Source: Bacteroidales bacterium (GTDB lineage Bacteria > Bacteroidota > Bacteroidia > Bacteroidales > UBA932). Taken from it: a stretch of 64,000 nucleotides of DNA. Location of the stretch: the NCBI GenBank assembly GCA_017626555.1, contig JAGAIM010000003.1, positions 124,001 to 188,000 on the forward strand. The letters are read 5' to 3'. Position numbers and translations under genes: made by a program. Each line of letters starts with the position of its first letter. The stretch's first letter is position 1. This document shows positions 7,618 through 29,474 of the stretch, piece by piece. Under the pieces are notes generated by a model. It did no database searches and was not told the origin of the DNA. It saw nothing but the letters and a program-made list of their open reading frames with translations.

Positions 7618-7651
7618 AATATGCCTGCTGTACTTTGACAGCAGGCATATT
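7618..7651. repeat. palindromic repeat (10-bp ATGCCTGCTG core), copy 1
   Basis: Perfect 13-bp stem (7618-7630 with 7639-7651) around an 8-base loop, TACTTTGA. It lies in the 214-bp spacer between aspS and the secreted unknown at 7682 and could end transcription of the latter. Matching elements occur at 8571, 27937 and 29445. Flanks such as TTACGCA before and TTGAT after are partly shared with copy 2. The rest of the spacer (7468-7617) shows no gene. Confidence 0.85.
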
Positions 7652-7681
7652 ACACAACTAATTGATAGTTACTATATTGCG

Positions 7682-8206
7682 TTACCAGGCCGTATCAGTG
7701 ACCGGAATATAAGTCAGACGGGTATTCTTATAGGTGAAGCCTTTCGTGTCTATCGCCCACATAGCTCCGGAATTGACGTTCAGGAGGATGATCTGGTCGG
7801 AGCCGTCACCATATTTGATCAGCTGATAGTTGACGGCATCCTTGTCATAGACAAAATCATCCGGTACATTGTCCCTGAGAATGTTCCATCTTATCGGTTC
7901 ACTCCTGTGATAGGTTATCAGGGTCACCTGACCGGTGTATTTGTCAAGAAAGTATTTGCCAAGATTCTCCACTCTGGGACCTTCCAGTGATGTTTCCGAT
8001 TTCGCTCCGAATATACGTTTCAGTTCATATTCCAGAGATGGTGATGACTTCTGCGCAGGTTTGTCATCGGACTTTTCTTTTGTCTCCTCCTTCTTCTCCT
8101 TCTCCTCGCCGCCACCGATCGTTACACTTACTGTCTGTGCATATATTCCGGATGCACTCCACATCACAGCGACAGACAGCAGGGCTGCCGCCATCAAGGA
8201 TTTCAT
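7682..8206 (-). CDS. secreted protein of unknown function
   Basis: 174 residues from ATG 8206 (MKSLMAAALLSVAVMWSASG); ATGs at 8212 and 8215 only lengthen the n-region. A clear signal peptide is cleaved near IYAQ. Then comes a highly charged Glu/Lys linker (EEKEKKEETKEKSDDKPAQK, residues about 29-50). The C-terminal 110 residues look globular and beta-rich (YFLDKYTGQVTLITY, QIILLNVNSGAMWAIDTKG). I do not recognise a family. The signal peptide and linker suggest a periplasmic or surface-tethered protein. It stands alone, flanked by palindrome copy 1 downstream and a divergent transporter upstream. Confidence 0.7.
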   Translation of the reverse strand: MKSLMAAALLSVAVMWSASGIYAQTVSVTIGGGEEKEKKEETKEKSDDKPAQKSSPSLEYELKRIFGAKSETSLEGPRVENLGKYFLDKYTGQVTLITYHRSEPIRWNILRDNVPDDFVYDKDAVNYQLIKYGDGSDQIILLNVNSGAMWAIDTKGFTYKNTRLTYIPVTDTAW

Positions 8207-8336
8207 ATACATCATAGTTGTTCGTTTTATTGATTAGACGTTTCAGGTTTGCTATAATACTATAAATTAGTGCAAAAAGCATTCCTCAGGAAAGGCATTT
8301 TCGCATATCTTTGCATCTCGTTTCAAAAACTGCAAT

Positions 8337-9341
8337 ATGTGGCTTATACTCGCTTTCATCTCGGCAGCAATGCTCGGGTTCTATGACACTTCGAAAAAGG
8401 CATCACTGAAGGACAATGCCGTCCTCCCGGTGCTGCTTCTGAACACTATATTTTCGACATTGATTTTTTCGCCGTTTATTCTGGACTATCTCGGAGACTT
8501 CGGGTGGTTCTCGCATATCAGATGGCTTGACGCATCCACGGTTTTCGCTGACACTCAGACGCTTACGCATAATGCCTGCTGTACAGATGCAGCAGGCATT
8601 TCACAGAAGGGGTTGATTATCAGCGACTTGCCTGGCACCAATCCTACGCTCACGGCGCATCTGATGGTCATTCTGAAGGCCTTCATCGTGCTTTCATCGT
8701 GGATCTGCGGATATTTCGGGCTAAAGCATCTCCCTCTGACCATCGTGGGGCCAATCAACGCCACGAGACCGGTGCTGGTGCTGCTTGGCGCCCTGCTCCT
8801 CTTCGGAGAAAGACTGAATCTCTGCCAGTGGGTCGGAGTGGTTCTGTCGCTGTCATCCATCTTCCTTATGAGCAAGGCCGGAAAGAAGGAAGACATCGAC
8901 TTCAAGAGCAACAGATGGATATGGTGCGTGGCAGGAGCGACCCTGCTGGGTGCCGTAAGCGGATTATATGACAAATTCATAATGAAGTCGCTGAATCCGA
9001 TGTTCGTCCAGAGTTGGTTCAATTTCTACCAGATGATAATTATGGCCGTCATCTGTGCTTTCCTCTGGTATCCTCACCGCCGTCAGACCACACCATTCCG
9101 GTGGTCCTGGGCGATTCCTCTCATATCCATATTCATCTGTCTTGCTGATTTTGCATATTTCACATCCCTCAGCGATCCTGACTCTATGATATCCGTCGTT
9201 TCACTGGTACGTCGCAGTTCGGTGATAATCTCCTTCGTCTGCGGAGTCATAATCTTCAAGGAAAGGAACATCAAGGCAAAACTCCTTGATCTGGGACTCA
9301 TTCTGCTGGGAATGGCGTTCATCTGGATAGGCACCCGATAG
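8337..9341 (+). CDS. EamA/DMT-superfamily permease with palindrome-encoded insertion
   Basis: 334 residues with about ten hydrophobic segments in two EamA-like halves (MWLILAFISAAMLGFYDTSKK at the start; TLLGAVSGLYDKFIMKSLNP starting the second). The family exports or imports small metabolites; the substrate is unknown. Residues about 74-100, after the second membrane segment, form an anomalous hydrophilic stretch including LTHNACCTDAAGISQ. It is encoded by palindrome copy 2 and its flanks, in frame, and replaces a normally short loop. A -7-like TATCTTTG at 8306-8313 precedes the start by 23 bp. Whether the insertion is tolerated cannot be judged, but the frame is intact throughout. Confidence 0.82.
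   Translation: MWLILAFISAAMLGFYDTSKKASLKDNAVLPVLLLNTIFSTLIFSPFILDYLGDFGWFSHIRWLDASTVFADTQTLTHNACCTDAAGISQKGLIISDLPGTNPTLTAHLMVILKAFIVLSSWICGYFGLKHLPLTIVGPINATRPVLVLLGALLLFGERLNLCQWVGVVLSLSSIFLMSKAGKKEDIDFKSNRWIWCVAGATLLGAVSGLYDKFIMKSLNPMFVQSWFNFYQMIIMAVICAFLWYPHRRQTTPFRWSWAIPLISIFICLADFAYFTSLSDPDSMISVVSLVRRSSVIISFVCGVIIFKERNIKAKLLDLGLILLGMAFIWIGTR
8571..8600. repeat. palindromic repeat, copy 2, inside the DMT permease gene
   Basis: Perfect 11-bp stem (8571-8581 with 8590-8600) around the 8-base loop TACAGATG. Same 10-bp core and same loop length as the three intergenic copies, but translated in frame at about codons 79-88 of the permease. Confidence 0.85.
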
Positions 9342-9361
9342 AAGTATTCGCTTTTATTTTT

Positions 9362-9369
9362 TACCTTTG
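9362..9369 (+). promoter_or_regulatory. -7 element upstream of rsmA
   Basis: TACCTTTG matches TAnnTTTG and sits about 35 bp before the rsmA start, just after the permease stop. I see no convincing -33 partner, so this is tentative. Confidence 0.4.
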
Positions 9370-9404
9370 CAGGGCGTTGCCACATATTTTTATCATTTAT
9401 TTAT

Positions 9405-10238
9405 ATGGAAGTTAGAGCGAAGAAGGCCCTTGGCCAGCACTTTTTGACAGATCTGTCCATCGCACAGAGGATTGCGGAAGCACTCATAGTACCTTGTCCG
9501 GGCATCGACGCCGTCAACGATGCAGAGAATCCGATGCCGGCACTCGAAGTCGGTCCGGGAATGGGTGTACTGACCCAATATGTGCTCCAGAGACCGGAAG
9601 TGGATCTGCGTATGGTAGAAATTGATACTGAATCAGTTGACTACCTTCTTGTGCATTTCCCTCAGGTAAACGGCAAACTCATTGAGGCTGACTTCCTGAA
9701 ACTCAGACTGGAGACTTTTTTCCCTGGAAAATTCTGCGTAATAGGCAATTTCCCGTACAACATATCGTCTCAGATCTTCTTCAAGATCCTGGACTACAAG
9801 GAAAGTGTGCCTCAGGTGGTGTGTATGATCCAGAAAGAGGTGGCAGAACGTATTGCCGAGAAGCCTGGCACAAAGACATACGGCATCCTTTCGGTGCTCC
9901 TTCAGGCCTGGTATGACATCGAATATCTGTTCACAGTAGGAGAAGGAGCATTCAATCCTCCTCCAAAGGTAAAATCGGCGGTCATCAGACTCGTCCGCAA
10001 CCAGCGCACCTCTCTCGGCTGCGACGAGGCTCTCTTCAAGACTGTAGTCAAGACAGGTTTCAACCAGCGCCGCAAGACCCTGCGCAACTCCCTCAAGCCG
10101 CTTATCCGCGCCAAGGCGGACAGATGCGGATGGTCAGAAGAACAACTTGCAGAGTTCGTGGCCGATCCTGTATTCGAACTCCGTCCGGAACGTCTCAGTG
10201 TAGAGGATTTCATCTCTCTGACCCTGAAACTGGCATAG
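9405..10238 (+). CDS. rsmA: 16S rRNA (adenine 1518/1519-N6) dimethyltransferase
   Basis: 277 residues, normal KsgA length. It dimethylates two adjacent adenines in helix 45 of 16S rRNA during small-subunit maturation, using SAM. Motifs: [11 protein letters not shown] at the N-terminus, SAM-binding [11 protein letters not shown] (about 46-56), and catalytic [15 protein letters not shown] matching the NLPYN motif. The C-terminal helical domain includes [14 protein letters not shown]. The segment after the first helix ([15 protein letters not shown]) is slightly longer than usual. The next gene starts 20 bp downstream. Confidence 0.96.
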
Positions 10239-10258
10239 AAAATGCTTTTTTCCGAAGT

Positions 10259-10762
10259 ATGAAAAAGATTTTGATGATTATGGCAGTGCTGATGATGCTC
10301 TGCCCGGATATATATGCCTCAGCGAAGAAGGCTGAAGAAAGTCCTGCAGTACAGGTGCTTACCTCCAACAAGAATGCTAGAAAACTGGAAGGGGGAATGT
10401 TGAAATTGGCAAGACCGGCCCTCAAGAAGACTCCGATGGCTGTCGTTATGGATGATATCGATATGATGGTGATGTATTCCATCAGCCAGAAAGCCGACGA
10501 AGAAGAGAAGCAGTTTGCTCAACAGGCTATAAACGTGTTGGAAAAATACAACAAAGTCAGTGAAATCGATGATCCGGACTACCGGATGTCCATCTACATA
10601 GACAACCCGGTCGGCGAAAACTTCTCAGAAATAATATTATACATCAGCAGACCGGATGCCTCGATAATGGTGTTTGTAGGAAACTTCACCATCGGATCGT
10701 TGAAAAAGGTCGGTGAAATCTCAGACCAGAGAAGGATGGAGAGAAGACAGGCTAAACGTTGA
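10259..10762 (+). CDS. DUF4252-like secreted protein
   Basis: 167 residues from ATG 10259 (MKKILMIMAVLMMLCPDIYA); a longer reading frame overlaps rsmA and is not credible because the signal peptide begins here. The pattern after the signal sequence (acidic linker, then MSIYIDNPVGENFSEIILYI and SIMVFVGNFTIGSLKKVGE) resembles DUF4252, a Bacteroidota family often encoded near ECF sigma factors. Function unknown. Its 3' end overlaps the convergent gene at 10752 by 11 bp, and the sigma cluster lies on the other strand. Confidence 0.65.
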   Translation: MKKILMIMAVLMMLCPDIYASAKKAEESPAVQVLTSNKNARKLEGGMLKLARPALKKTPMAVVMDDIDMMVMYSISQKADEEEKQFAQQAINVLEKYNKVSEIDDPDYRMSIYIDNPVGENFSEIILYISRPDASIMVFVGNFTIGSLKKVGEISDQRRMERRQAKR

Positions 10763-11168
10763 AAAGCCCGGTACGGGACAACGAAAAAGCCAATATCCCA
10801 AGGCTGAGTACACCCAGAAACATATATCTCCAGGTGATTACGAACTGAATCACCGGCGATGAATAAGGCATCTGAGGATTCACGAGAAAATAAAGGGCAG
10901 CAAACATAATTATCGAGAGTGCTGCATTCAGAAGCAGAGCCATCAAAGCCTGACGGCGGCAACGTTTCCTCAGCATCTCACGGATAAGGCTCAATATGCG
11001 CATATTCTCCTGTATCCTTTCCTCATCAGTCCCTCTGAGTGAGGCCGGAACAGGCAGAAGGTCGATCTGACGCACCAGATCCGCAATGAACGCATCATCC
11101 TCCGGCACCTGTATCTTATTGTCCTGCAAGAACTTCCTTATATCTTTATCGGTTTTCATATCTTCCAT
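10752..11168 (-). CDS. small membrane protein of the ECF sigma cluster (DUF5056-like)
   Basis: 138 residues. The N-terminal 65 residues are soluble and charged (DKDIRKFLQDNKIQVPEDDAF). Two hydrophobic helices follow (about 72-92 and 110-130). Position directly after the sigma gene (52 bp) and this soluble-then-membrane layout suggest an anti-sigma or sigma-associated membrane factor. I see no ZAS zinc motif. The DUF5056 assignment is from memory of similar loci and is uncertain. Confidence 0.55.
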   Translation of the reverse strand: MEDMKTDKDIRKFLQDNKIQVPEDDAFIADLVRQIDLLPVPASLRGTDEERIQENMRILSLIREMLRKRCRRQALMALLLNAALSIIMFAALYFLVNPQMPYSSPVIQFVITWRYMFLGVLSLGILAFSLSRTGLFNV

Positions 11169-11220
11169 TTAATAACTGATTTTTGTCATTTCGTGCGAAA
11201 CGGAGTGCAGTCGGAAATCC

Positions 11221-11739
11221 CTATCCCAACCCCTCCAGAAATTGCCTCAGATGCACTCGCGCCCGTGACAGATGCGACCTCACCGTCCCCGAAGGCATCC
11301 CGGTTATCACCTCTATCTCCTTGACGGACTTATCCTCCATATAGAAAAGCAGCACCACCGCCTGTTCCTGTCTTGAAAGACTCCCGATAGCCAGATACAA
11401 CTGCTGCTGTTCATACTTAGTGTCTGCTGAATGACTCTCATCTTCAACATCGGCAACCTCTTTCCGTACATTCCAATCCGAATCATTCACTGAAATCCAG
11501 TCATCCTTCCCTCCGGCCTTCTTCAAGTGGTCATACCAGCAGTTGTAAGCGATCCGGAACAGCCAGGTCGAGAAACGGGAACGACCCTGGAAGCGTTCAA
11601 AAGAGAGATAAGCCTTCAGCAAGGCCTCCTGTGCTATATCATCCGCAAGAAACCCATCGCCTGCACACAGACCGCGCAGGAACCTCCTCAAAGACTCCTG
11701 CTCGGCTGCTATCAACTCTATGAACTGCTCCTTATTCAT
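11221..11739 (-). CDS. RNA polymerase ECF sigma-70 factor
   Basis: 172 residues. Region 2 (DDIAQEALLKAYLSFERFQG, then FSTWLFRIAYNCWYDHLKK) and region 4 (LSRQEQAVVLLFYMEDKSVK and the PSGTVRSHLSRARVHLRQFL helix-turn-helix) are both clear. It directs RNA polymerase to a small regulon, probably envelope-related. It sits second in a minus-strand set: membrane DUF6249-like gene, sigma, membrane protein. Spacings are 44 and 52 bp, so co-transcription is likely. Confidence 0.92.
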   Translation of the reverse strand: MNKEQFIELIAAEQESLRRFLRGLCAGDGFLADDIAQEALLKAYLSFERFQGRSRFSTWLFRIAYNCWYDHLKKAGGKDDWISVNDSDWNVRKEVADVEDESHSADTKYEQQQLYLAIGSLSRQEQAVVLLFYMEDKSVKEIEVITGMPSGTVRSHLSRARVHLRQFLEGLG

Positions 11740-11783
11740 CTACTAAACCAACTATTTCAGATACTAAGCACTTCTAGTCGTAG

Positions 11784-12221
11784 CTATTTCTGAAGCTTTT
11801 TCTCCTCCGCCTCGATCTCCGGTGCCAGATATTTCCTGCCGACAAAAAATGCCAATATATACGCTGCTCCGACTGCAATCAGTACACCACCTATGATATA
11901 CAGCATCTCAATTCCGGCAACTCCTTCAAAGGCATCCAGTTGAGTACAGATCAGCACAGCCAATCCGATTATGGCACATATTACCCCAGTCGTAAGCTTC
12001 CTGACCAGCTTCATCTTAGTGTTACGGCCACCCTCCGTCTCACTTACCAGAAGCGCAGGATCTATATCCACACCATTCTCGATGGCCTTCACCAGTACCG
12101 CCATCTTCTGCTCATTCTTCTTGAGCCTTGCACGGGTCACCAGCCATACGACCATCACAGGAAGCACTACCACCACAAAGATAGGAAGAAGAGTTTCAAA
12201 CAATTCAACAACTCCATTCAT
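11784..12221 (-). CDS. DUF6249-like membrane protein
   Basis: 145 residues from ATG 12221 (MNGVVELFETLLPIFVVVVL); an upstream ATG at 12251 adds ten unremarkable residues. One N-terminal membrane helix is followed by a conserved-looking soluble stretch (EQKMAVLVKAIENGVDIDPALL), then two more helices. This layout fits DUF6249, which accompanies ECF sigma genes in Bacteroidota. Likely role: membrane component of the sigma signalling unit (inference from position). Confidence 0.6.
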   Translation of the reverse strand: MNGVVELFETLLPIFVVVVLPVMVVWLVTRARLKKNEQKMAVLVKAIENGVDIDPALLVSETEGGRNTKMKLVRKLTTGVICAIIGLAVLICTQLDAFEGVAGIEMLYIIGGVLIAVGAAYILAFFVGRKYLAPEIEAEEKKLQK

Positions 12222-12350
12222 AATACCGATTATTTTAAATTTGACATTCATTCCGCTCCGCCCGACGACATTTCCCGGACGGTTTCAGATATTAGACTGC
12301 ATAATGCCGAAAAATGTTGCAACCATTTACCTGACTTGGCGACAAAAGCA

Positions 12351-12358
12351 CAAAAATA
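12351..12358 (-). promoter_or_regulatory. possible -7 element of the ECF sigma operon
   Basis: The minus strand reads TATTTTTG, matching TAnnTTTG, about 130 bp upstream of the first cluster gene. No clear -33 partner is visible. The remaining intergenic sequence up to 12436 shows no gene. Confidence 0.3.
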
Positions 12359-12436
12359 GTCGTTTTTGTTCTTGGATAACTGTTTTTGAGTGGCACAAAC
12401 ACTAGACAAGGCGTATTTTGAACCGAGTAACAGTAT

Positions 12437-13294
12437 CTAAATCAGCATCGACGGTGATAGTCCCATTTTTGAAAAGGCGAATAACTTCTTGCCGAGATCC
12501 TTCAGGGAGGCACCTATATGATAGACATCATCATCCACTATCAGAAAGCGGTCGTGGATATTTGGCATCTGAACGATATTGATCGGTGGATACTGGCTAT
12601 TGTGTTTCTGAATATCCAACTGCAATTGCCTGGACAGATGACCGGTACGGATCTCTGCCTTTACAGCAGCAGCCCGCTTTGAAAGAGTCACCAGAACGGA
12701 TTCATCTATATAATTATCAATCAGGACAATCCGCTTCCTGGCAGATTTAATCAACTCAGCCACAAACACATACGCATCAAATATCTGTCCATCATAGAAG
12801 ATTCCCTCAACAGGAGGAAGCGATGTCCGGACGAAGAAATCGATCTGCTTCTGATGTTCATCAAGGCGATGTTCGTGCTCAATAAACTTCAAATTTACCC
12901 TATTCTCTAAAATGGAAAGTCGATTGCTTGTAAGATTCCCACTTAAGAGATATTTTTTAAGTATAAGATTTGCCCATCTGCGAAATTGGACTCCACGAGA
13001 AGACTTAACGCGATATCCTATTGATAACACCATATCAAGATTATAGTGTTCTACATAATAAGTTTTGCCATCTGTTGCAGTTGTCGCAAAATTTGCGACA
13101 ACTGGCATTTCTTCCAACTCTTCATTTAACGCATTCTTTATATGTTTGCCTATTGTCTTTACATCTCTGCCAAACAACTCTGCCAATTGATGACGGTTCA
13201 GCCACACAGTCTCTCCTTCAACCCTCACCTCCAGCCTCGTGATTTCATCCGGCTGATACACTACAATCTCACCGGTCATATTATTTTCTTCCAT
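12437..13294 (-). CDS. RhuM-like protein with C-terminal PLD-like domain, intact copy
   Basis: 285 residues from ATG 13294 (MEENNMTGEIVVYQ); 13300 is an alternative. Residues about 8-115 resemble the RhuM family (VWLNRHQLAELFGRDVKTIG, HYNLDMVLSIGYRVKSSRGV, FRRWANLILKKYL), found in pathogenicity islands and phage-like regions. Residues about 150-285 form a second domain ending in HDRFLIVDDDVYHIGASLKD. This fits a phospholipase-D-like HxKx4D...GS motif with the Lys replaced by Arg. A single such motif would need dimerisation to make an active site. Between the domains, DEHQKQIDFFVR suggests a helix. Function unknown; DNA binding or nucleic-acid cleavage is an inference. It is followed by a broken paralogue in tandem (13325-14182). 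Confidence 0.75.
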   Translation of the reverse strand: MEENNMTGEIVVYQPDEITRLEVRVEGETVWLNRHQLAELFGRDVKTIGKHIKNALNEELEEMPVVANFATTATDGKTYYVEHYNLDMVLSIGYRVKSSRGVQFRRWANLILKKYLLSGNLTSNRLSILENRVNLKFIEHEHRLDEHQKQIDFFVRTSLPPVEGIFYDGQIFDAYVFVAELIKSARKRIVLIDNYIDESVLVTLSKRAAAVKAEIRTGHLSRQLQLDIQKHNSQYPPINIVQMPNIHDRFLIVDDDVYHIGASLKDLGKKLFAFSKMGLSPSMLI

Positions 13295-13324
13295 AATCAT
13301 TTGATTGTATTTCGATATTTCCTT

Positions 13325-14182
13325 TCAGAGTAACAGCATAGACGGTGATAACCCCAGTTTGGAAAAAGCGAAGAGTTTTTTGCCGAGATCCTTCAGGGAG
13401 GCACCGATGTGATAGACATCATCATCCACAATCAGGAAGCGGTCGTGGATATTTGGCGTCTGGATGATTTCGACCGAAGGATACTGACTGTTGTGTTTCT
13501 GAACATCCAACTGCATTTGCCTGGACAGATGGCCGGTACGGATCTCTGCCTTTACAGCAGCAGCCCGCTTTGAAAGAATCACCAGAACGGATTCATCTAT
13601 ATAATTATCAATCAGGACAATCCGCTTCCTGGCAGATTTAATCAACTCAGCCACAAACACATAAGCATCAAAGATCTGCCCGTCATAGAAGATTCCCTCA
13701 ACAGGAGGAAGCGATGTCCGGACGAAGAAATCGATCTGCTTCTGATGTTCATCAAGGCGGTGACTATGATCAAGTAGTATGTTTTCTATCACTTCAATTC
13801 TCTTATTCGCCACATATCTCCGAAGCATATATTCCTTTAATACAGAATTAGCCTATTGCCGGAACAATACGCCTCGTTCAGACTTTACTCTATAACCAAC
13901 AGAGATTATCATATCCAGATTGTAATATTCTACCTTTCGCTCAACAAGCCTGCTACCTTCTTTTTGAACTATCGCAAAATTTGCGACAGTTGGAATATGC
14001 CTTAACTCTTCACGCAAAGCATTATGTATATGTTTGCCTATTGTCTTTACATCTCTGCCAAACAACTCTGCCAATTGATGACGGTTCAGCCACACTGTCT
14101 CACCCTCGACACGCACTTCAAGCCTCGTGATTTCATCCGGCTGATACACCACTATCTCACCAGTCAGATCTTTATCTTTCAT
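13325..14182 (-). pseudogene. RhuM/PLD-like paralogue interrupted by one in-frame TAG
   Basis: Reading from ATG 14182 gives 109 codons up to a TAG at 13853-13855, then continues in the same frame to the stop at 13325. The TAG sits where the intact copy has Trp (FRRWANLILKKY against FRQ*ANSVLKEY), so a single TGG-to-TAG change explains it. An internal ATG at 13828 could restart a 167-residue product holding the PLD-like domain. Residues 7-52 and the last 150 are nearly identical to the intact copy, while the middle differs. It could be a dead duplicate, a split gene giving two proteins, or an amber readthrough case. Confidence 0.8.
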
Positions 14183-14186
14183 AAAA

Positions 14187-14224
14187 AAATGATGACTATC
14201 CTTCTCAAAGGTCAGTCATCATTT
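14187..14224. repeat. hairpin in the leader of the broken RhuM-like gene
   Basis: An 11-bp perfect stem (14187-14197 with 14214-14224) with extra pairing inside (CCTT/AAGG). It begins 5 bp upstream of ATG 14182, so it would sit in the 5' leader on the minus strand. It could be a terminator from upstream or a structure hiding the start codon. Confidence 0.6.
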
Positions 14225-14336
14225 TATACTAATCAAGATGCGAAAAGAGATTTTTCTGTTTTTTAAGAAACTTTTTCTCTTTTTTAGGTGTTTTCAACTT
14301 TTCTTATGTGCATCACGCCGCTGACGCAAGGACTTG

Positions 14337-16193: not shown

Positions 16194-16221
16194 AATACGT
16201 ATTGGTTTGAGGGTGAATGAG

Positions 16222-16242
16222 ATTCCCGATCAAGTCGGGAAT
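16222..16242. repeat. short palindrome (ATTCCCGA/TCGGGAAT) between peptide gene and lipoprotein
   Basis: Perfect 8-bp stem with 5-base loop, followed by GACGG. A related TCGGGAATGACGG string occurs inside folA at about 29765-29777, which suggests a dispersed REP-like family. Here it lies in the 73-bp gap between two same-strand genes. Confidence 0.6.
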
Positions 16243-16266
16243 GACGGGAAGAACCGGAAATGACGA

Positions 16267-16770: not shown

Positions 16771-16786
16771 TTATAAGGTAGAAAAT

Positions 16787-17431: not shown

Positions 17432-17456
17432 ACCGTCTTCCAGGCGAGAAAACAAC

Positions 17457-17484: not shown

Positions 17485-17508
17485 TGTAATATACTGATGG
17501 ACAGAGAA

Positions 17509-20980: not shown

Positions 20981-20996
20981 AACATCTTTTATTATG

Positions 20997-21038
20997 AAGT
21001 GGTGATACAAAAAACGGTAATTTCTTGTATCACCGCTT
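20997..21038. terminator. terminator after mutS
   Basis: A 14-bp stem with one mismatch (20997-21010 with 21025-21038) ends 2 bp from the mutS stop codon, with A/T runs in its loop and flank. Confidence 0.65.
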
Positions 21039-21039
21039 T

Positions 21040-23661
21040 CTATATGCCAAGTTGTTCCTTCATAGATCGCAACAAATCGAAGGCCTGAAGCGGAGTCATA
21101 TTGTTAAGATCGGCCTTGTCAAGTTCGTCCTTGAGGGAGGAGAGAAGAGGGTCTTCCAACTGGAAGAACGAAAGTTGGAGAGAGCCATCACTCTCGACAC
21201 GGCCTTCACGGATGTTGTGAGGCTTGACCTTCTTCGTCTTGACTGGAGTGCCGGACTCGAGCGAAGCAAGAGTCTTCTCGGCTGATTCCAGCACCTGCTT
21301 AGGCATACCGGCCATCCTGGCTACGTGCAGACCGAAACTATGAGCGACACCGCCCTCCATAAGTTTTCTAAGGAATATAACATTCCTGCCCACTTCCTTG
21401 ACTGCAATATGGAAGTTCTTCACACGGTCATATATTTCCTCCAGATCGTTAAGTTCGTGATAATGAGTAGCAAACAACGTCTTTGCACCGTCGCCATACT
21501 CGTGGATATATTCCACTATAGCACGCGCAATGGACATTCCGTCGTATGTCGATGTTCCTCGTCCGATCTCATCCAGAAGCACAAGCGAACGGGATGATAG
21601 ATTATGCAGGATCATCGAAGTCTCGAGCATCTCAACCATAAATGTCGATTCTCCGCGGGATATGTTGTCTGATGCACCGACGCGCGTGAATATCTTGTCG
21701 CAATATCCTATTTCTGCAGAGGAAGCAGGAACAAACGAACCTATCTGTGCCATCAGAACTATAAGGGCAGTCTGGCGCAGGAGAGCCGATTTTCCGGCCA
21801 TATTCGGACCGGTCAGAATTATTATCTGCTGATTCTTGTTATCGAGATATATGTCGTTCGGCACGAATTCCTCCCCGACCTGCATCATCGTTTCAATGAC
21901 AGGATGACGCCCCTGCTTTATATCTATGACATTGCTGTCGTTCATCTTAGGACGGCAATATCTGTTGGAGACCGCAAGATCGGCGAATCCGCTCAGAACG
22001 TCCAGACGGGCAAGAATGCGGCAATTCTTCTGTATTATGGAAATATTGGCTTGAATCCTTCCGACAAGTTCCGCATATATCTGAGCCTCAAGGGCATATA
22101 TTCTTTCTTCCGCTCCGAGTATCTTCTGTTCATACTCCTTCAATTCCTCTGTGATATATCTCTCGGCATTGACCAAAGTCTGCTTTCTGATCCATTCCGC
22201 GGGGACACTGTCCTTGTATGTGTTGCGCACTTCGAGATAGTAGCCGAAGACATTGTTGAAGCCTATCTTCAGAGACGTTATGCCGGTTCTTTCTATCTCG
22301 CGCTGCTGCACTTCCAGAAGATAATCCTTCCCGTGACGCGCTATCTTTCGCAATTCATCCAGTTCTTCATTCACGCCACTGGCAATAACATCGCCTTTGC
22401 CAAGTTGCGAAGCAGTTTCCGGATGCATAGTATTTCCCAGATATTCCAGAAGTCCGGCGCAGTCACCCATATTGTCTAACAGGTCGTCCAGGGCACCGAC
22501 TTTTGAGCGACATAACCTGATTATCGGATCGGTCTGGCTCAGGCCTCGGCGAAGTTGCATCACTTCACGAGGCATAATCTTGCCGGCTGCTGCGCGTGAG
22601 ATGATTCGTTCAAGATCACCGACATCACCTATCATTGTCTGGAGACGGGCCAGATCATCCTGATTATCAACAAAATGCTGAACCACAGCATATCTGTCTT
22701 CCAGTTCCTTCAGATCCATCACCGGCATCGCCAGCCAGGTACGGAGCATACGGGCTCCCATCGGAGACGAACACTTGTCCATAACCTCGACAAGTGATGT
22801 ACCCTCTTTCCCTGCCGTAGATGTGAATATTTCCAGATTGCGGAATGTAAACCGGTCCATCCATACAAAGGCACCCTCATCAATGCGGGATATTGAACAT
22901 ATATTTGTAAGTTCCTTATGCTGAGTCTGTTCCAGATATATAAGCAAGGCTCCGGCAGAGGTTATACCGAGAGGGAAATTATCGATGGCAAATCCTTTCA
23001 GGGAGTCAACGTGCAACTGTCTCTTGAGTTTTTCCACAGAACTGTCATAGACAAAAGCCCATTCCTCCAGAGTCGAGACATAATAATGATCGCCATATCT
23101 TTCCTTTGTACCCTTTTCATACCCCCTTGGTACGAGAAGTTCCTTCGGAGCGAACGAACTAAGGAGCGTCCCGATATAATCGAGACTGCCTTCTGCCACT
23201 TGGAATGTACCTGTAGAGACATCCAGAAAGGCCACGCCACACCTGTCCTTGTGGAATGTAAGACCTGCTATATAGTTATGTTCTTTCTGCTCGAGAAGTT
23301 GTTCATTGAAGGCTATGCCGGGAGTAACCAGTTCAGTGATACCTCTCTTGACGATCTTTTTGGTCAGTTTAGGATCTTCCAGTTGATCACATACTGCCAC
23401 TTTGTATCCTGCACGGACAAGTCTCGGAAGATATGTTTCGAGTGAATGATATGGGAATCCGGCCATCGGGATTGCTCCAGGGGTGGCACTGGAACGCTTT
23501 GTGAGCACGATTCCAAGCACTTTGCTGGCCGTAAGGGCATCATCGCCGTATGTTTCGTAGAAGTCGCCGCACCTGAAAAGAAGCACTGCCTCCGGATGCT
23601 CCGCCTTCACGGCGAAGAACTGCTTCATCATCGGTGTTTCGGTCGGTTTCTGAGTTGCCAT
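21040..23661 (-). CDS. mutS: DNA mismatch repair protein MutS
   Basis: 873 residues, usual MutS length. It recognises mismatches and recruits MutL. Order: mismatch-binding domain with the Phe-x-Glu motif (LLFRCGDFYETYGDD, residues about 28-42), connector, lever and clamp domains, then the ABC-type ATPase. The ATPase has Walker A GPNMAGKSALLRQ (about 615-627), the STFMVEM signature, Walker B LVLLDEIGRGTSTYDGMSIA and the FATHYHEL loop. The short C-terminal tail (residues about 800-873) ends in a dimerisation-like helix. Divergent from the glycosyltransferase at 23896. Confidence 0.98.
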   Translation of the reverse strand: MATQKPTETPMMKQFFAVKAEHPEAVLLFRCGDFYETYGDDALTASKVLGIVLTKRSSATPGAIPMAGFPYHSLETYLPRLVRAGYKVAVCDQLEDPKLTKKIVKRGITELVTPGIAFNEQLLEQKEHNYIAGLTFHKDRCGVAFLDVSTGTFQVAEGSLDYIGTLLSSFAPKELLVPRGYEKGTKERYGDHYYVSTLEEWAFVYDSSVEKLKRQLHVDSLKGFAIDNFPLGITSAGALLIYLEQTQHKELTNICSISRIDEGAFVWMDRFTFRNLEIFTSTAGKEGTSLVEVMDKCSSPMGARMLRTWLAMPVMDLKELEDRYAVVQHFVDNQDDLARLQTMIGDVGDLERIISRAAAGKIMPREVMQLRRGLSQTDPIIRLCRSKVGALDDLLDNMGDCAGLLEYLGNTMHPETASQLGKGDVIASGVNEELDELRKIARHGKDYLLEVQQREIERTGITSLKIGFNNVFGYYLEVRNTYKDSVPAEWIRKQTLVNAERYITEELKEYEQKILGAEERIYALEAQIYAELVGRIQANISIIQKNCRILARLDVLSGFADLAVSNRYCRPKMNDSNVIDIKQGRHPVIETMMQVGEEFVPNDIYLDNKNQQIIILTGPNMAGKSALLRQTALIVLMAQIGSFVPASSAEIGYCDKIFTRVGASDNISRGESTFMVEMLETSMILHNLSSRSLVLLDEIGRGTSTYDGMSIARAIVEYIHEYGDGAKTLFATHYHELNDLEEIYDRVKNFHIAVKEVGRNVIFLRKLMEGGVAHSFGLHVARMAGMPKQVLESAEKTLASLESGTPVKTKKVKPHNIREGRVESDGSLQLSFFQLEDPLLSSLKDELDKADLNNMTPLQAFDLLRSMKEQLGI

Positions 23662-23880
23662 AATATGATAGTTTTATGATATTCTGCGCTTAAAAACGCA
23701 ATCAGGCAAATTTACTGATTTTATCCGAAAAAGAAAAGGCACAACAGCATCAGAAGACGATCCCCTGACATTCAGCCACTTACCCACTCTGCGTGCTCCC
23801 CTTTTACCGGCACGCAGTTGCTGTAAATGCTTCATATTCACCGCATTAGCCTCCACCTTCCGATGTTCGGAGATTTTATG

Positions 23881-23888
23881 TATATTTG
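23881..23888 (+). promoter_or_regulatory. -7 element just before the glycosyltransferase start
   Basis: TATATTTG matches TAnnTTTG exactly and ends 7 bp before ATG 23896. Transcription would start at or within a few bases of the start codon, predicting a nearly leaderless mRNA. Confidence 0.5.
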
Positions 23889-23895
23889 CAGGATT

Positions 23896-25218
23896 ATGAA
23901 AAGGGTGCTGATCATATCATATTATTGGCCGCCTACCGGTGGTTCGGGGGTACAGCGATGGGTGAAATTCGCAAAATACCTTCCGGAAGAGGGTTGGCAG
24001 CCGGTGATATATACTCCGGAGAATCCAGAGCAACTGGCCGTGGATGCATCATTGGAAGCGGAAGTGCCGGCAGAGGCCGAGGTTATAAAGAGGCATATCA
24101 TAGAGCCGTATGAACTGTACAAGAAGGTTCTTCGAAAATCGGGACACAGCAAGGAGGCCGTAGAGGTGAATCCGGTCAACGCCCAGAACAAGTCCTTCCT
24201 CCAGAAAGCCGCTATGTGGGTCAGGGGCAATTTTTTCCGTCCGGATCCACGTTGCCTCTGGATCGGACCATCAGTGCGATATCTCAAGAAATATCTTGAG
24301 GAGCATCCTGTAGATCTGATTGTGAGCACAGGACCTCCGCAGTCGATGCATTTGATAGGTCTTCGATTGGCACGCGAAACCGGACTTCCGTGGGTGGCAG
24401 ATTTTCGGGATCCTTGGACGAAAATATTCTATTTCAAGCACTTGCAGATGACCAAGGCGACCGAAAGATGGCACGGGAAAATGGAAAAGAAAGTGCTTGA
24501 CGAGGCTTCGGCAGTTGTTGCCGTATCCCCTCTGGTGCAGCAGGAGTTCCAGGCTATGACCGATACTCCGGTGGAACTTATAACCAACGGGTTCGACGAG
24601 TGCGATTTCCCTTCTGAAAAGGATATCGAAGCATACGGGGGGCCGGACAAGGATTTTACAATAACGCATACCGGACTGTTCGCTGCAGACGGCAATCCTA
24701 CAGTGCTCTGGGATGTGCTTGCGGATAAATGCCAGGCAGATGAAGATTTCAGGAAAAGGCTGAAGATCAGATTGGTAGGAAAGACTGACGAGCAGATCAT
24801 CAGGGCTCTTGAAGAAAGAGGATTGAAGGATATGCTGGAAGATATGGGTTATCAGCCCCATCAGGTGGCCGTGCAGGAGCAGAGAAGTGCATCTGTACTC
24901 ATCCTTCCACTGAGAAAGGAGCCTGAATACAAGGCCGTGCTCCCAGGTAAACTTTTTGAATATCTGGCTTCATACAGGCCTGTGCTCGGAATAGGTCAGA
25001 GGGACGGAGCGATGGCTATGATCCTTAATGAGACCCAGACCGGAAGAGTTATCGGTTGGGAAGATAAGGAAGGCATATCGGAATATATCGAACAGTGCTG
25101 GAAGAAACATCTTGAGGGAAGACTCACGATCGAAGGAGGCGATATTTCGCGCTTCACCCGACGCAGCACTACCCGACAGATGGCCGGACTTTTTGACAGA
25201 CTTACATCTCATCCGTAA
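23896..25218 (+). CDS. glycosyltransferase, GT4-like
   Basis: 440 residues from ATG 23896 (MKRVLIISYYWPPTGGSGVQ), chosen over 23827 because of the promoter and the typical GT4 opening. N-terminal Rossmann domain with YYWPPTGGSGVQR and WVADFRDPW; C-terminal domain with VEKA-like LVGKTDEQII and PLRKEPEYKAVLPGKLFEYL, the nucleotide-sugar contact region. It transfers a sugar from a nucleotide donor, most likely for cell-surface glycans; donor and acceptor are unknown. A hairpin spanning its stop codon separates it from the YfhO-like gene. Confidence 0.85.
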   Translation: MKRVLIISYYWPPTGGSGVQRWVKFAKYLPEEGWQPVIYTPENPEQLAVDASLEAEVPAEAEVIKRHIIEPYELYKKVLRKSGHSKEAVEVNPVNAQNKSFLQKAAMWVRGNFFRPDPRCLWIGPSVRYLKKYLEEHPVDLIVSTGPPQSMHLIGLRLARETGLPWVADFRDPWTKIFYFKHLQMTKATERWHGKMEKKVLDEASAVVAVSPLVQQEFQAMTDTPVELITNGFDECDFPSEKDIEAYGGPDKDFTITHTGLFAADGNPTVLWDVLADKCQADEDFRKRLKIRLVGKTDEQIIRALEERGLKDMLEDMGYQPHQVAVQEQRSASVLILPLRKEPEYKAVLPGKLFEYLASYRPVLGIGQRDGAMAMILNETQTGRVIGWEDKEGISEYIEQCWKKHLEGRLTIEGGDISRFTRRSTTRQMAGLFDRLTSHP

Positions 25219-25237
25219 AACAGTCCTTTTTACGGAT
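25210..25237. terminator. terminator overlapping the glycosyltransferase stop
   Basis: Perfect 11-bp stem (25210-25220 with 25227-25237) with a 6-base loop. The TAA stop lies in its left arm and the ATG at 25236 in its right arm, which argues for starting the next gene at 25260. Confidence 0.65.
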
Positions 25238-25259
25238 GGCAATAGAACAGATAAAAAAT

Positions 25260-27914
25260 ATGAATAAAGAAGTATTGAAGAAGATCGGAATCTACGCAGG
25301 CATTTTCCTGCTTTTTGTCGTACTGGCTTACGGATACACTCCTCAGGTGCTGGACGGTAAGATTGTGAATCAGAGCGATATAGCATCGTGGAAAGGTATG
25401 GCTAACGAGGCTATGACTTTCAATAAGGCCAATCCGGACGACCCTACAGCCTGGACGAATTCGATGTTCGGAGGTATGCCTACGACTGCCACTATCGACA
25501 GTTTCGATGGAGACTGGACTGACCATATATATGATTTCCTTCTCACAGGAAAGCGTCCGGCAAGTTATTTCCTTCTTGCCTTGATTGGAGGATTTCTTCT
25601 TATGCTTTCGATGGGGACAAGCAAGGTGATTGCAGTGGCCGGTGCCATCGCTATCGCTTTCTGTTCGTACAATATGCAGATCATCCAGGTGGGACATAAC
25701 ACCAAAATGCAGGCAATCGCCTATTTCCCGTGGGTGCTGGCAGGGGTCATTTTCACATATCGTGCGGCAATGAGATCCCTCGACTCCTGGCTGCCTAAGA
25801 CAATCCTCGGAGCGACATTGTTTGCTTTTGCCCTCAGTATGCAGATAAAGGCCAATCACCCTCAGATTACATACTATCTCGCAATAGTAATATTCGCATA
25901 CGCTATAGGGCTTCTTATTTACCTGTGTATCAGGAGAAAAGATCTGCTGAAACGTTTCTTTGCCGCATCGGCTCTTCTTCTGGTGGTGGGATGTATAGGC
26001 ATAGCGACAAATGCCAACAAACTGATTCCGACATACGAATATTCTGCTTATACTATGCGTGGCGGATCTGAACTTTCATCAGACAGCGACACGCATAATG
26101 ACAAGGGACTGGATCTGGAATATGCCACTGCCTGGTCGTATGGCATCAATGAAATGCCGAACCTCCTGATCCCTAATTTCAACGGAGGAGCATCCTCCGG
26201 AGAACTGCCTCTGGATTCAGAGACTGGCGAACTTCTCAAAAGAGCCGGCCAGCCAAATCTCCGACAGACTATGAAACATCTGCCCCTTTACTGGGGTCCG
26301 CAGCCTTTCACGGCCGGTCCTATGTATATGGGAGCAATAACGATATTCCTTTTCGTCCTCGGTCTCATCCTCTGCAAAGGTCGCGAAAAATGGTGGCTTG
26401 TGGCAGCAACTGTCATCACTGTTTTTCTTGCCTGGGGCAATCATTTTATGTGGTTCACTAGACTATGGTTCGATTATGTTCCTATGTATAATAAATTCAG
26501 AACCGTATCTATGTCTCTGACCGCTCTCCAGGTGCTGCTTCCAATGCTGGGATTTTATGCTCTGGACAAGGTACTGAAGGAAAGATATGACAAGAAGGTA
26601 TTTATGAAGGCTGGCTATATAGCATACGGCATCACCGGAGGATTCTGTCTTCTGTGCGTCCTGATTCCTGGCATTGCAGGTACTTTCACAGGAGCATCGG
26701 ATGCAGGAATGAATGAAATGATCGTTGATGCTCTTGCCGCTGACCGTCAGACACTTATGACCAAGGATGCTCTCAGGTCACTGATTCTTGTCTCGGTAAT
26801 GTTCCTGCTGCTCATCTGGGCTTTCAAGACTCCTAAGCAGGATGCTGTCGGAAAGGATGGATCATTTGTACGAAAGGGCAGGATGAGCATCGTTGCTGTG
26901 GCCGTTGTGTTCCTCGTATGGATCGACCTGGTAAGTGTAGGCAAGAGATATCTCAACAAGAGCCATTTCATCACTCCGAAGGATTTCACCGCTCATTATG
27001 ACCCTCGTCCTGTGGATGAAATAATCCATCAGGATACCGATCTTGATTATCGTGTGCTCGATCTTAGCGTGAATACATTCAATGATGCGATACAGAGTTA
27101 CCATCACAAGTGCATCGGTGGCTACAGTCCGGTGAAGTTGCAGCGCTATCAGGATCTCATCGACAGATATATAACTGACGAAATCAGAGATATTTACGGA
27201 GCCGTTTCCGGAGCCGCTACAGTGCAGGAGGTGGAGAAAGCCCTTCCTGAGACAAAGGTAGTGTCGATGCTGAACGGAAAGTATATAATCCTTGACGGAA
27301 ATATTTCACCGGTAGTGAATCCTTATGCATACGGTAACTGCTGGTTCGTGTCTGATTATGTGCCTGCAGCCACTCCTGACGACGAAATCGCCCTTCTGGC
27401 CTCGACAGATCTGCATACCACTGCTGTCATAGGTGATGATTTCGCCTGGGCACAGGATGCAATACGTCCGATCGCTGACAATGCCGCTGAAACTGCCATT
27501 GCAAGCAGCGACGAGGCAACATCTTCACCGATTATCGAAATGACACACTATGCACCTAACGAACTCCGTTATTCATTCAGTACAGATGCAGAGCGCGCCG
27601 CAATATTCAGCGAGATATATTACCCTAAGGGCTGGAAGGCGTGGATAGAGCCTGCAGGAGGCTACGGGGAAGTGCGTAACGGACATTATCAGCCAAGCGC
27701 TGAAGGCCGTCCTGTCGAACTTTTCCGCGCAGACTGGATGCTCCGTGGAGCGATCATACCGGAAGGGGAAGGCCAACTCATTATGCGATTCGAGCCTGAA
27801 TCGTACCAACTTGGCGAAAACATCTCCCGCGCCAGTTCGATAGTTCTGATCCTGCTTCTGATCGGCTCGGCTGCCGGAATGATAATCTTCCGCCGAAAGA
27901 ACGGTGACGCATAA
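25260..27914 (+). CDS. YfhO-like polytopic membrane protein
   Basis: 884 residues from ATG 25260 (MNKEVLKKIGIYAGIFLLFV); ATG 25236 is inside a hairpin. About twelve membrane segments (starting near residue 10) surround a periplasmic loop. They are followed by a soluble C-terminal region (about 590-850) and a final helix (LILLLIGSAAGMIIFRRKN). Pattern and size fit YfhO/DUF6044-like proteins, considered GT-C-like and implicated in surface polymer glycosylation in other bacteria. QVGHNTKMQAIAYFPW and PMYMGAITIFLF are typical of the family as I know it. It follows a glycosyltransferase, which supports an envelope-glycan role. Confidence 0.78.
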   Translation: MNKEVLKKIGIYAGIFLLFVVLAYGYTPQVLDGKIVNQSDIASWKGMANEAMTFNKANPDDPTAWTNSMFGGMPTTATIDSFDGDWTDHIYDFLLTGKRPASYFLLALIGGFLLMLSMGTSKVIAVAGAIAIAFCSYNMQIIQVGHNTKMQAIAYFPWVLAGVIFTYRAAMRSLDSWLPKTILGATLFAFALSMQIKANHPQITYYLAIVIFAYAIGLLIYLCIRRKDLLKRFFAASALLLVVGCIGIATNANKLIPTYEYSAYTMRGGSELSSDSDTHNDKGLDLEYATAWSYGINEMPNLLIPNFNGGASSGELPLDSETGELLKRAGQPNLRQTMKHLPLYWGPQPFTAGPMYMGAITIFLFVLGLILCKGREKWWLVAATVITVFLAWGNHFMWFTRLWFDYVPMYNKFRTVSMSLTALQVLLPMLGFYALDKVLKERYDKKVFMKAGYIAYGITGGFCLLCVLIPGIAGTFTGASDAGMNEMIVDALAADRQTLMTKDALRSLILVSVMFLLLIWAFKTPKQDAVGKDGSFVRKGRMSIVAVAVVFLVWIDLVSVGKRYLNKSHFITPKDFTAHYDPRPVDEIIHQDTDLDYRVLDLSVNTFNDAIQSYHHKCIGGYSPVKLQRYQDLIDRYITDEIRDIYGAVSGAATVQEVEKALPETKVVSMLNGKYIILDGNISPVVNPYAYGNCWFVSDYVPAATPDDEIALLASTDLHTTAVIGDDFAWAQDAIRPIADNAAETAIASSDEATSSPIIEMTHYAPNELRYSFSTDAERAAIFSEIYYPKGWKAWIEPAGGYGEVRNGHYQPSAEGRPVELFRADWMLRGAIIPEGEGQLIMRFEPESYQLGENISRASSIVLILLLIGSAAGMIIFRRKNGDA

Positions 27915-27936
27915 AACACTGATATTCAACATATTC

Positions 27937-27976
27937 CATAAAATGCCTGCTGCATCTGCGCAGCAGGCATTTTATG
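27937..27976. repeat. palindromic repeat, copy 3, acting as bidirectional terminator
   Basis: Perfect 16-bp stem (27937-27952 with 27961-27976), 8-base loop CATCTGCG. It lies between the convergent stops of the YfhO-like gene and the NSS transporter, so it probably terminates both. Same core as copies at 7618, 8571 and 29445. Confidence 0.85.
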
Positions 27977-28047
27977 TAAACACTTGATATTCATCCGATT
28001 GCGCGTCTCTCATATTAATCCTTCGACCCAAAAGTAGGGCATCGACT

Positions 28048-29391
28048 CTACAGCAGCCCGGAGATGAAGATGGCGATAATGGCAAGAGGACAGACGAATC
28101 TGATGAGGAACCAGAGGACACCGAAAAGTTTTGCATTACGGCTGAGGGTATCCCCGTTGGTGAATTCATCATAAACATCGGTCTTCTTGAGCCTCCATCC
28201 GACGAATAGCACCGTCAGAAGACTTCCGAGGGTCATCAATATGTTGGATGAAAGATTGTCGAAGAAATCAAATATATTGCCTCCGTCTATCTTTATATGC
28301 GAGAGTGGTCCGAAAGACAAAGAGCAAAGGGCTCCGACAACCCAACAGATGCCGAAAAGCAATGCGCAGGCAGCCACACGTGAGAATTTCTTTTCTTCAA
28401 CAAGATAGGCTACTGCCACTTCAAGCATAGAAATAGATGAAGTCAGAGCGGCCACCAGAAGAGCGACGAAGAAGAGAATGGCCACAAATCCTCCTGCCGG
28501 CATCTGTCCGAAAACGAACGGAAGGGTCTCGAAGACAAGGCCGGGGCCGGACTGCGGATTTAGCCCGAACGCGAACACGGCTGGCATTATGGCCACTCCG
28601 GCTATAAGGGCAAACATAAGGTCTGAGACTGCTGTCGCTGTGCTCTGGAACATTATATTCTCTTTCTTATCCACGTATGAAGCGTATGTCATTATGGTAC
28701 CGAATCCAAGTGAAAGTGAGAAGAACGCCTGTCCGAGGGCTGCTGCACAGGCTTTGGCGTCTATCTTGGAGAAATCCGGATTGAAGAGGTACTCTACGCC
28801 CTTCTGAGCACCGGGAAGGGTAAGGGAATAAATGGCAATACTGATGACAATGAAGAAAAGCAGAGGCATCATTACCTTGCTGAATTTCTCGATACCGTCC
28901 TTGATGCCGACTACGACAATCAGCGTGGTTGCAAGCAGAAAGACAGTCTGAACGATAAGAGGTGCCCAAGTGGAAGAGACAAAATCCGAGAACATCGTAT
29001 TCAATGCACTTTGAGACTCACTGCCGGTAAATGAGAAGGCAAAGGACTTGAACATATAATCGATCGACCATCCTCCGATTACGCTATAGTATGAAAGGAC
29101 TATCAGAGGCACAATGATGGTGAAAAGTCCAACCCAGCGCCAGGCCGATCCGCCTGAAAGGTCACGGAAAGCAGCGTATGCATTCTTCTGGCTCCTGCGT
29201 CCCACTACGAATTCGGAAATGAATATAGGAAGGCAGATGAGGAAACTAAGGATTATATATACAATGATGAAGGCTGCTCCTCCGTTCTCTCCCACAAGAT
29301 AAGGGAAACGCCAGAGGTTGCCCAGGCCCACTGCCGAGCCTGCCATTGCTACAAGTGCGCCGAAACGGCTGCCGAAACTGTCTCTTGACAT
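28048..29391 (-). CDS. sodium-dependent transporter, neurotransmitter:sodium symporter family
   Basis: 447 residues, about eleven membrane helices. Helix 1 has the family signature GSAVGLGNLWRFPYLVGENG with the unwound Gly pair that binds sodium and substrate; helix 6 has GQAFFSLSLGFGTIMTYASY. LeuT-type members import amino acids with Na+. The length, eleven rather than twelve helices, is common in bacterial members that take up tryptophan or similar substrates. Substrate unknown. Monocistronic between palindromic repeats 3 and 4. Confidence 0.92.
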   Translation of the reverse strand: MSRDSFGSRFGALVAMAGSAVGLGNLWRFPYLVGENGGAAFIIVYIILSFLICLPIFISEFVVGRRSQKNAYAAFRDLSGGSAWRWVGLFTIIVPLIVLSYYSVIGGWSIDYMFKSFAFSFTGSESQSALNTMFSDFVSSTWAPLIVQTVFLLATTLIVVVGIKDGIEKFSKVMMPLLFFIVISIAIYSLTLPGAQKGVEYLFNPDFSKIDAKACAAALGQAFFSLSLGFGTIMTYASYVDKKENIMFQSTATAVSDLMFALIAGVAIMPAVFAFGLNPQSGPGLVFETLPFVFGQMPAGGFVAILFFVALLVAALTSSISMLEVAVAYLVEEKKFSRVAACALLFGICWVVGALCSLSFGPLSHIKIDGGNIFDFFDNLSSNILMTLGSLLTVLFVGWRLKKTDVYDEFTNGDTLSRNAKLFGVLWFLIRFVCPLAIIAIFISGLL

Positions 29392-29444
29392 AATATAAAA
29401 TTTAAGGTGACACCTAAGTGTCTGATTTACAGCGGAATGCGTGA

Positions 29445-29474
29445 TATGCCTGCTGCAGATACACAGCAGGCATA
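29445..29474. repeat. palindromic repeat, copy 4
   Basis: Perfect 11-bp stem (29445-29455 with 29464-29474), 8-base loop CAGATACA, just downstream of the folA stop on the minus strand, so a likely terminator for folA. A separate small palindrome (GACAC/GTGTC) lies at 29409-29422. Confidence 0.8.

Follow-up and report, generated by a model that had tools for sequence, protein, structure and literature searches.

What kind of element do four dispersed palindromes with identical arms and a constant central spacing represent, in a stretch of Bacteroidales DNA of 64,000 nucleotides (the window; contig JAGAIM010000003.1, positions 124,001 to 188,000)? We find that each palindrome is the centre of a much larger element of fixed geometry. 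Very probably these elements are non-autonomous and resemble repetitive extragenic palindromic (REP) sequences, with the palindromes as their identity cores, and belong to cognate HUH/Y1 transposases of the type of the REP-associated tyrosine transposases (RAYTs). A first-pass annotation had described the four palindromes as having exact arms and an 8-base loop, and all four lie where it placed them: ATGCCTGCTG-N8-CAGCAGGCAT occurs with zero mismatches at the core positions given in Table 1, compared to a mean of 0.00 in 100 shuffled windows, and all eight occurrences of ATGCCTGCTG in the window are inside the four palindromes.

The fixed loop length extends to the whole genome that contains the window (G000, from a gut bacterium; 3.09 Mb in 222 contigs). 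When a gap of 0–30 bases between the arms was permitted, we found 32 exact copies, all 32 with an 8-base centre, and no copies for the reversed arms. A relaxed search (at most three mismatches, arms one base shorter each) returned 46 places, compared to one for the reversed control; these are the 32 exact copies, seven with one mismatch, one on contig C14 with two symmetric changes, and six that look like chance matches. The first 40 form the set that we call family A, which was picked by its arms and is thus biased toward intact arms. Exact arms are present in one of the 40 relatives searched (G021). The annotation also held that the loop sequences differ; the 8-base centre is not free, and most copies have Y-R ... 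Y-R at its outer positions.

The annotation missed the size of the element, its common framework and a second family in the same genome. In an ungapped alignment of the 40 cores, conservation extends from -53 to +54 and defines a dyad-symmetric element of 108 bp; beyond these limits there is little conservation, except for a T at +57 in 26 of the 40 copies. The framework is TAA-N4-YTGA-N3-TYAR-N4-TTA with randomised positions between. Read outward, one half consists of CAGCAGGCAT, a TTTACGTAA-like segment, four free positions, YTGA-N3-TYAR, four more free positions and TTACGTG-YCACC, and the other half is its mirror image. The spacing and the recognised positions have been kept while the remainder has drifted to saturation, based on three observations: none of the 80 halves is out of register (shifts of 6 in either direction tested), the arms carry nine substitutions in 800 positions, and pairwise identity at the 19 low-information positions is 27.0%, compared to 25.2% expected from composition.

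Exceptions to this drift are a few close copies, three on contig C76 and one, less close, on C9. The C76 copies (L012, L013 and L051) are closely similar and each lies between open reading frames (ORFs), several of ~482-484 codons, apparently as a result of segmental duplication; the relative G139 has elements at the corresponding places (L320). As a check on the arm-picked set, a sequence-only model of the whole element was made from 40 elements that came from several families and several genomes; with 150 of 886 first-look candidates scored, it found the same 40 copies in G000 and 30 other places, ~70 in total. No decayed family A copy was among the places listed by this model, although a few faint remnants are possible among the candidates beyond the 150 scored.

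The additional places define the second family (B), as 29 of the 30 carry a CGTGC core in one arm or both; the remaining place, C121:5849, has CTCCTGC instead. A 109-bp dyad fits best in 26 of the 30, a few of the automatically assigned dyad registers being visibly off, and many family B ends are GCAGAGGRTAA or GGAGGATAA, within a framework identical to that of family A. Across the genus there are at least 10 different core tags, and the two families are found together in G000. The ends also differ by family (GGTGRC, CGTAAAAT, GCAGAGG and others), with GTGR at the outer edge in family A and CGTAAAAT in the G139 family.

The centre lengths across genomes indicate a geometry that is constant, or almost constant, in any one family and that differs by a base from family to family. 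With 7-15 centre bases permitted, all 48 copies of the TGCGTGC/GCACGC family in G139 have 12 (the same 48 copies were obtained when these stretches were rescanned with 5-20 permitted), as do nine of nine in G042, while five of five family B copies in G000 have 13. The six copies of ATGCCTGCTG arms in G021 all have a 7-base loop. Five of these six are identical at 29 of 29 core bases and agree at 24-44 of 78 flank bases; the sixth, 0.4 kb from one of the five, agrees at 25 of 29 bases in the core and 64 of 78 in the flanks. G021 had suggested that the core might move by itself; this was not adopted because the outer ends are also family-specific, and the sixth copy is the reverse case.

The annotation took the constant loop as a sign of selection for shape, and this is borne out for the central stem, which covaries, but not beyond it. 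For each of the five window elements, folding as single-stranded DNA is better than in all 200 shuffles (z -3.8 to -5.4; -4.8 for element 7581-7688), and the core at 27943-27970 has a 17-bp stem in the predicted fold. We compared pairing within copies to that obtained when halves were dealt to other copies, using 38 copies from G000 (two near-duplicates removed) and the 47 of 48 G139 copies in register. In the family A core (positions 14.5-19.5 from the centre), 138 of 228 cells are paired, compared to 106.5 ± 6.0 (reached in 0 of 2000 permutations), while outside the core 551 of 1178 are paired, compared to 578.8 ± 14.1. Similarly, in G139, 197 of 329 core cells are paired (176.3 ± 6.6 expected; reached in three of 2000 permutations) and 813 of 1598 outside it (831.1 ± 16.0). 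This core-only compensation points to a hairpin core accompanied by two inverted sequence-recognition modules. A single hairpin over the 108 bp was therefore rejected as the selected structure, as its outer pairs lack covariation in spite of the strong folding. Local hairpins within each outer half (ACGTAA-N4-CTGA..TCAG-N4-TTACGT) were also ruled out for lack of covariation; the pair -35/-29 is GC in 38, GT in 17, AC in 16 and AT in one of 76 halves. The 12-base centre in G139 is anti-palindromic (120 of 282 paired, compared to 155.5 ± 8.9), and thus the element has a direction. In the G139 elements (L282-L325), TCCCC lies on one side of the centre and a CGCC-like sequence on the other, which gives each an orientation. 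A search of Rfam returned no match in the window at gathering score.

A RAYT-like transposase, which the annotation had proposed to look for, is present in G000. Three places match PF01797 (Y1_Tnp), two of them above the cut-off. One of these two, on contig C162, encodes a protein of 309 amino acids with an HUH motif DHIH and a Y motif YIGNNP; family A elements, both with a single mismatch in an arm, lie 2 bp before its start and across its stop, and two further elements are within 1.6 kb of the gene. The transposase gene on C174 has family B elements on both sides, and the third Y1 gene (C92) has no flanking element. The fixed loop and the C162 gene support the preference of the annotation for REP-like mobility or a recognition site over a plain terminator. 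The C162 protein also matches the NCBIfam model REP_Tyr_transpos (NF047646) at residues 3-138 (E 3.2e-11, below the cut-off of the model).

All 16 RAYT-like proteins of the genus that we aligned (L034:3464-4393 and relatives; alignment A2) match Y1_Tnp at E ≤ 0.1 and have a C-terminal half in common, for which Pfam gave no match above cut-off and scattered sub-threshold ones only. The last motif of this half, QIxKFLH, may resemble a helix-turn-helix. In a search of PDB profiles the best match of the RAYT was an IS200/IS605-type transposase, 2xo6 (which we take to be ISDra2 TnpA; E 0.002), in agreement with the Y1 core; matches to 14-3-3 proteins just under it (E ~0.003) were taken as chance similarity between helical regions.

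The elements track such transposases across the genus. We examined an evenly drawn sample of 61 genomes, with stricter filters for elements and at most the best 63 candidates scored per genome, such that a count of 63 means at least 63. Y1_Tnp hits, which need not all be RAYTs, are found in 46 of the 61 genomes and element hits in 40; elements are present in 38 of the 46 Y1-positive genomes, but in only two of the 15 that are Y1-negative (Fisher P = 2.3e-6), one of which (G001) has one weak match. We then considered 31 RAYT loci. Three are those of G000, and 28 of the other 45 Y1-positive genomes contributed one each; a further locus, the 29th (L054), was left out because it contains a stop. 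At a score of at least 30, 17 of the 31 loci have at least one flanking element and 10 have elements on both sides, compared to a maximum score of 29.6 among shuffled loci (20 shuffles per locus). The scoring matrix comes from alignment A1, which includes elements of seven of the 17 loci (L034, L057, L059, L067, L077, L078 and L079), and the other 10 are independent of it. A matrix made from family A of G000 alone found elements at nine RAYT loci of other genomes and at C174, and none in shuffled loci.

Elements at the 17 flanked loci are 107-109 bp long (107 at L066). On average, the core arms that flank a given RAYT gene differ at 0.8 of 10 positions (range 0-2), compared to 6.2 between loci. 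At seven RAYT loci, one of which (L062) scores below 30, the best downstream element begins nine bases before the transposase stop, and thus the TAA of the element is the stop codon of the transposase.

Among 295 genomes of the order, matches at E 1e-5 were found only in G000 and G417, with the best 13 candidates per genome considered and sensitivity low. In G417, from another family of the order (L275-L281), there are TAA-N4-CTGATTATCA-type modules with no evident palindromic core in the places printed; these modules are perhaps a simpler relative of the elements. Element-like hits near the SNF symporter gene occur in a few named Bacteroidales (L207, L233, L239 and L255), from a scan that had no shuffled control. 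Among 198 genomes of the order, only two proteins, both of G000, match the full-length RAYT profile, the others matching mainly its catalytic half. None of 28 such loci of other genera has an element by the matrix of this genus, which could miss differently built elements. The genus itself is probably Cryptobacteroides-like, judging from named relatives of the SNF protein: identity to several ‘Candidatus Cryptobacteroides’ is 61-64%, and nearer relatives are labelled Bacteroidales or Bacteroidia only.

Elements prefer gene 3′ ends. By a simple ORF caller, 39 of the 40 family A copies are intergenic: 17 lie between convergent genes, 19 between codirectional and three between divergent ones, and one is intragenic; an earlier ORF pass placed two more across a short or start-extended ORF. 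Among 53 gene 3′ ends facing an element, 50 are within 30 nt of its edge and 19 of these are inside it, in a count that by construction excludes 3′ ends more than 30 nt inside; for seven of those gene ends the TAA at element positions 10-12 serves as the stop. In the window, where the annotation had placed three palindromes at gene ends and one in a gene, the intragenic copy is the one with its core at 8572-8599. The element at 29406-29513 supplies the last codons of the DHFR gene, the one at 8532-8639 adds 36 in-frame codons to the EamA transporter gene, and the one at 7581-7688 lies upstream of an aspartyl-tRNA-synthetase-like gene, 5698-7467(-).

Table 1. Elements of the two families in the window
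Family	Position	Length	Core	Gene context	Basis
A	7581..7688		7621-7648	overlaps stop end of gene 7682-8215(-)	arms, alignment
A	8532..8639		8572-8599	within EamA transporter gene 8337-9341(+)	arms, alignment
A	27903..28010		27943-27970	3′ ends of 25236-27914(+) and SNF symporter 28048-29391(-)
A	29406..29513		29446-29473	between DHFR gene 29494-30042(-) and SNF symporter start
B	23749..23857 (approximate)	109 bp			arms CTGCGTGC/GCACGCAG; ortholog in L204

The sites occupied in the window differ between species both in the presence of an element and in its family. The EamA insert is absent from 26 of 29 aligned relative proteins and present in G152, G145 and G139; G145 and G139 have a 108-bp element with TGCGTGC arms rather than family A, and G152 has a weak match. 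In the gap between the SNF and DHFR genes there is a family A element in G000, a family B element in L204 (the nearest named relative, with an SNF protein 91% identical to that of G000), a TGCGTGC element in G139, and none in L195, L196, L201, L202 or L259. On the 3′ side of the SNF gene, G000 has a family A element, L204 a remnant and L199 an AAAGCCTGCTGC element, while L200 (SIG150, SUYM01000031.1) has a complete element-RAYT-element unit (L200:3118-4361) at the site of the solo element 27903-28010; none was detected in L195, L197, L198, L201, L202, L203 or L259. The family B element of the window is orthologous to L204:10610-10718. The 28-bp centre of this element is inverted between the two genomes (27 of 28 bases), with collinear surroundings.

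The REP-like reading thus rests on the cognate bracketing of transposase genes, the co-occurrence with Y1 genes, the presence or absence of elements between species, the near-fixed geometry and the covariation of the core. We observe a nearly fixed geometry of 107-109 bp and a common framework, in which the core arms and the terminal inverted repeats are specific to each family. In the mechanism that we propose, the core would fold as a single-stranded hairpin, for which the covariation is supporting evidence, and the cognate RAYT would recognise it, as published for TnpA-REP of Escherichia coli. The two inverted outer modules would not be halves of a stem but sites recognised by their sequence. 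The enzyme would cut and rejoin single strands, such that the entire 108 bp is inserted; insertion would be tolerated mainly at gene ends that are extended by a few codons and a stop, and selection would keep the arms intact.

Several observations weigh against this interpretation. No movement has been observed. Fourteen of the 31 RAYT loci have no flanking element at a score of at least 30, eight Y1-positive genomes have no element hits, and G046, in which Y1 gave no hit, has 14 strand-matches. The NF047646 score of the C162 protein, 43.3, is under the cut-off of 80 for that model. RAYT identity and arm distance are weakly correlated (rho -0.18, P = 0.035). Centre length varies within some genomes, with nine copies of 12 and one of 13 in G145 and two copies of 12 and 10 in G152. 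Finally, the upkeep of the arms exceeds that of decaying selfish copies and is unexplained by a purely parasitic repeat.

This upkeep is a reason to consider that the elements are host-serving sites on double-stranded DNA, at which a DNA-binding protein, by means of the dyad, organises the chromosome or controls gene ends, any mobility being historical; the binder might possibly be the C-terminal half of a domesticated RAYT. We regard this as possible, though rather unlikely. It would account for outer modules that are conserved in sequence and do not covary, for arms and framework that are kept while neutral positions are saturated, and for the orthology of the family B element in a relative with ~77% gene DNA identity. 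It does not fit with families that differ between species even at the same site, nor with elements that track Y1 hits and are missing from otherwise matching sites in several close relatives.

Sites at which the family differs raise another idea, that the elements are long-lived slots in the chromosome, built on one framework, in which RAYT families overwrite one another's tags (core arms and terminal repeats) in place, the whole set of slots in a genome being relabelled together; we consider it improbable. Among the 48 elements of G139, five have both flanks in common with a G000 element and five more have one, a suggestive excess of common sites over chance in these sequence comparisons. At C4:192658, the families differ between G000 and G139 and yet both boundaries match to the base, whereas at EamA one boundary matches to the base and the other is off by 21 nt in the linker. 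At the SNF-DHFR site the boundaries are within ~1 base on the DHFR side. Neutral bases retained at common slots were rejected as proof of in-place exchange, since among seven slot pairs compared only one, C4:192658, exceeds random (47 of 80, compared to 37.0 ± 4.4; the other six are 32-43). Two further G139 loci (L286 and L306) match window genes whose ends in G000 have no element. If slots are indeed relabelled, this would be a homing-like exchange of tags by an HUH transposase, and the arms would be kept so strictly because the elements still serve the cell.

The remaining explanations fare worse. Duplicated bidirectional intrinsic terminators would have the stable stem seen here, would suit the 17 copies between convergent gene ends, and would fit the frequent T at +15 to +17 in G000 (20, 31 and 25 of 40); this is nevertheless quite improbable, because the G021 copies and the printed G139 copies lack a T-run behind the stem, one copy is intragenic, and a 108-bp geometry and cognate transposases are not features of terminators. 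Terminal inverted repeats and a size of ~100 bp would also describe an ordinary miniature inverted-repeat transposable element of an unrelated DD(E/D) insertion sequence, but the gene bracketed by elements is a Y1/HUH transposase and copies differ at most neutral positions rather than being near-identical, which makes this very improbable. A DNA uptake signal, with a short, identical and highly repeated arm that is also scattered singly, is scarcely credible, as 71 of the 82 genomic occurrences of ATGCCTGCTG are inside elements, leaving 11 outside compared to four for the reversed control.

If the elements are REP-like, a large, mostly uncultured gut genus gains a REP/RAYT system with a near-fixed 108-bp geometry. 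On the question of how RAYTs recognise their repeats, and how these spread and are kept, many enzyme-tag pairs on one constant scaffold make recognition testable by exchanging the tags of elements that are alike in all other respects. That the arms are so strictly maintained argues for service to the cell.

Much of what we describe has a counterpart in known systems: RAYT-repeat pairs with several families per genome (PMC6006769), repeats that supply stop codons and lie in genes (PMC3733652), inverted doublets (PMC3116915), co-evolution of enzyme and repeat (PMC8266576), and long-lived REPIN populations that are thought to benefit the host (PMC8049555). In the REPtrons of the REP/RAYT (TnpA-REP) system, as here, a Y1/HUH gene is bracketed by dispersed palindromic repeats, each gene has its own repeat family, several families can coexist and copies in frame in genes are reported (Quentin 2018, PMC6006769; Corneloup 2021, PMC8266576). 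The unit is larger here, 107-109 bp with two outer modules compared to ~20-60 bp for a REP (PMC3733652, PMC3116915), and the constant GT[AG]G foot of a REP is not found at the base of the hairpin, the GTGR of family A being some 35-40 bp from it. The RAYTs here also differ from those of REPtrons in being ~310 amino acids long and in having a C-terminal half for which Pfam gives no match above cut-off.

Terminal inverted repeats (TIRs), some repeated in the genome, also bracket the Y1 transposase in TIRYT/TIRtrons (Di Nocera 2013, PMC3733652); the motif GGGGWSAS of some, but not all, such TIRs is absent here, where there is instead a central covarying hairpin. Two TnpA-Y1 subclasses are also similar in part (Quentin 2018, PMC6006769). 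Subclass 2.4 has double-foot REPs, in-frame insertions and a Y motif YIxNNP. Subclass 2.6, mostly from Bacteroidetes, is flanked by ‘atypical secondary structures’ that recur at other places in the genome and that may be the same as the elements here; the motifs of subclass 2.6, NH[LIV]H and YIH[QN]NP, differ from the DHIH and YIGNNP of the family A enzyme, and the median lengths of subclasses 2.6 and 2.4 are 179 and 194 amino acids, compared to ~310 here. In the open-access literature, main texts only and as far as accessible, we found no description of an element of this size and framework, of this long enzyme form, or of sites that are occupied by a different family in a relative. The REPINs (Bertels and Rainey 2011, PMC3116915) are, like the elements here, symmetric inverted doublets whose conserved parts are separated by less conserved sequence and whose length is critical. 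REPINs have two invariant ends and reported compensation across the hairpin, whereas here the ends, framework and centre are all conserved and compensation is limited to the central stem. In our best reading, Bacteroidales have in these elements their own variant of the REP/RAYT mobile repeats, distinguished by an unusual fixed geometry, and we infer that the elements move.

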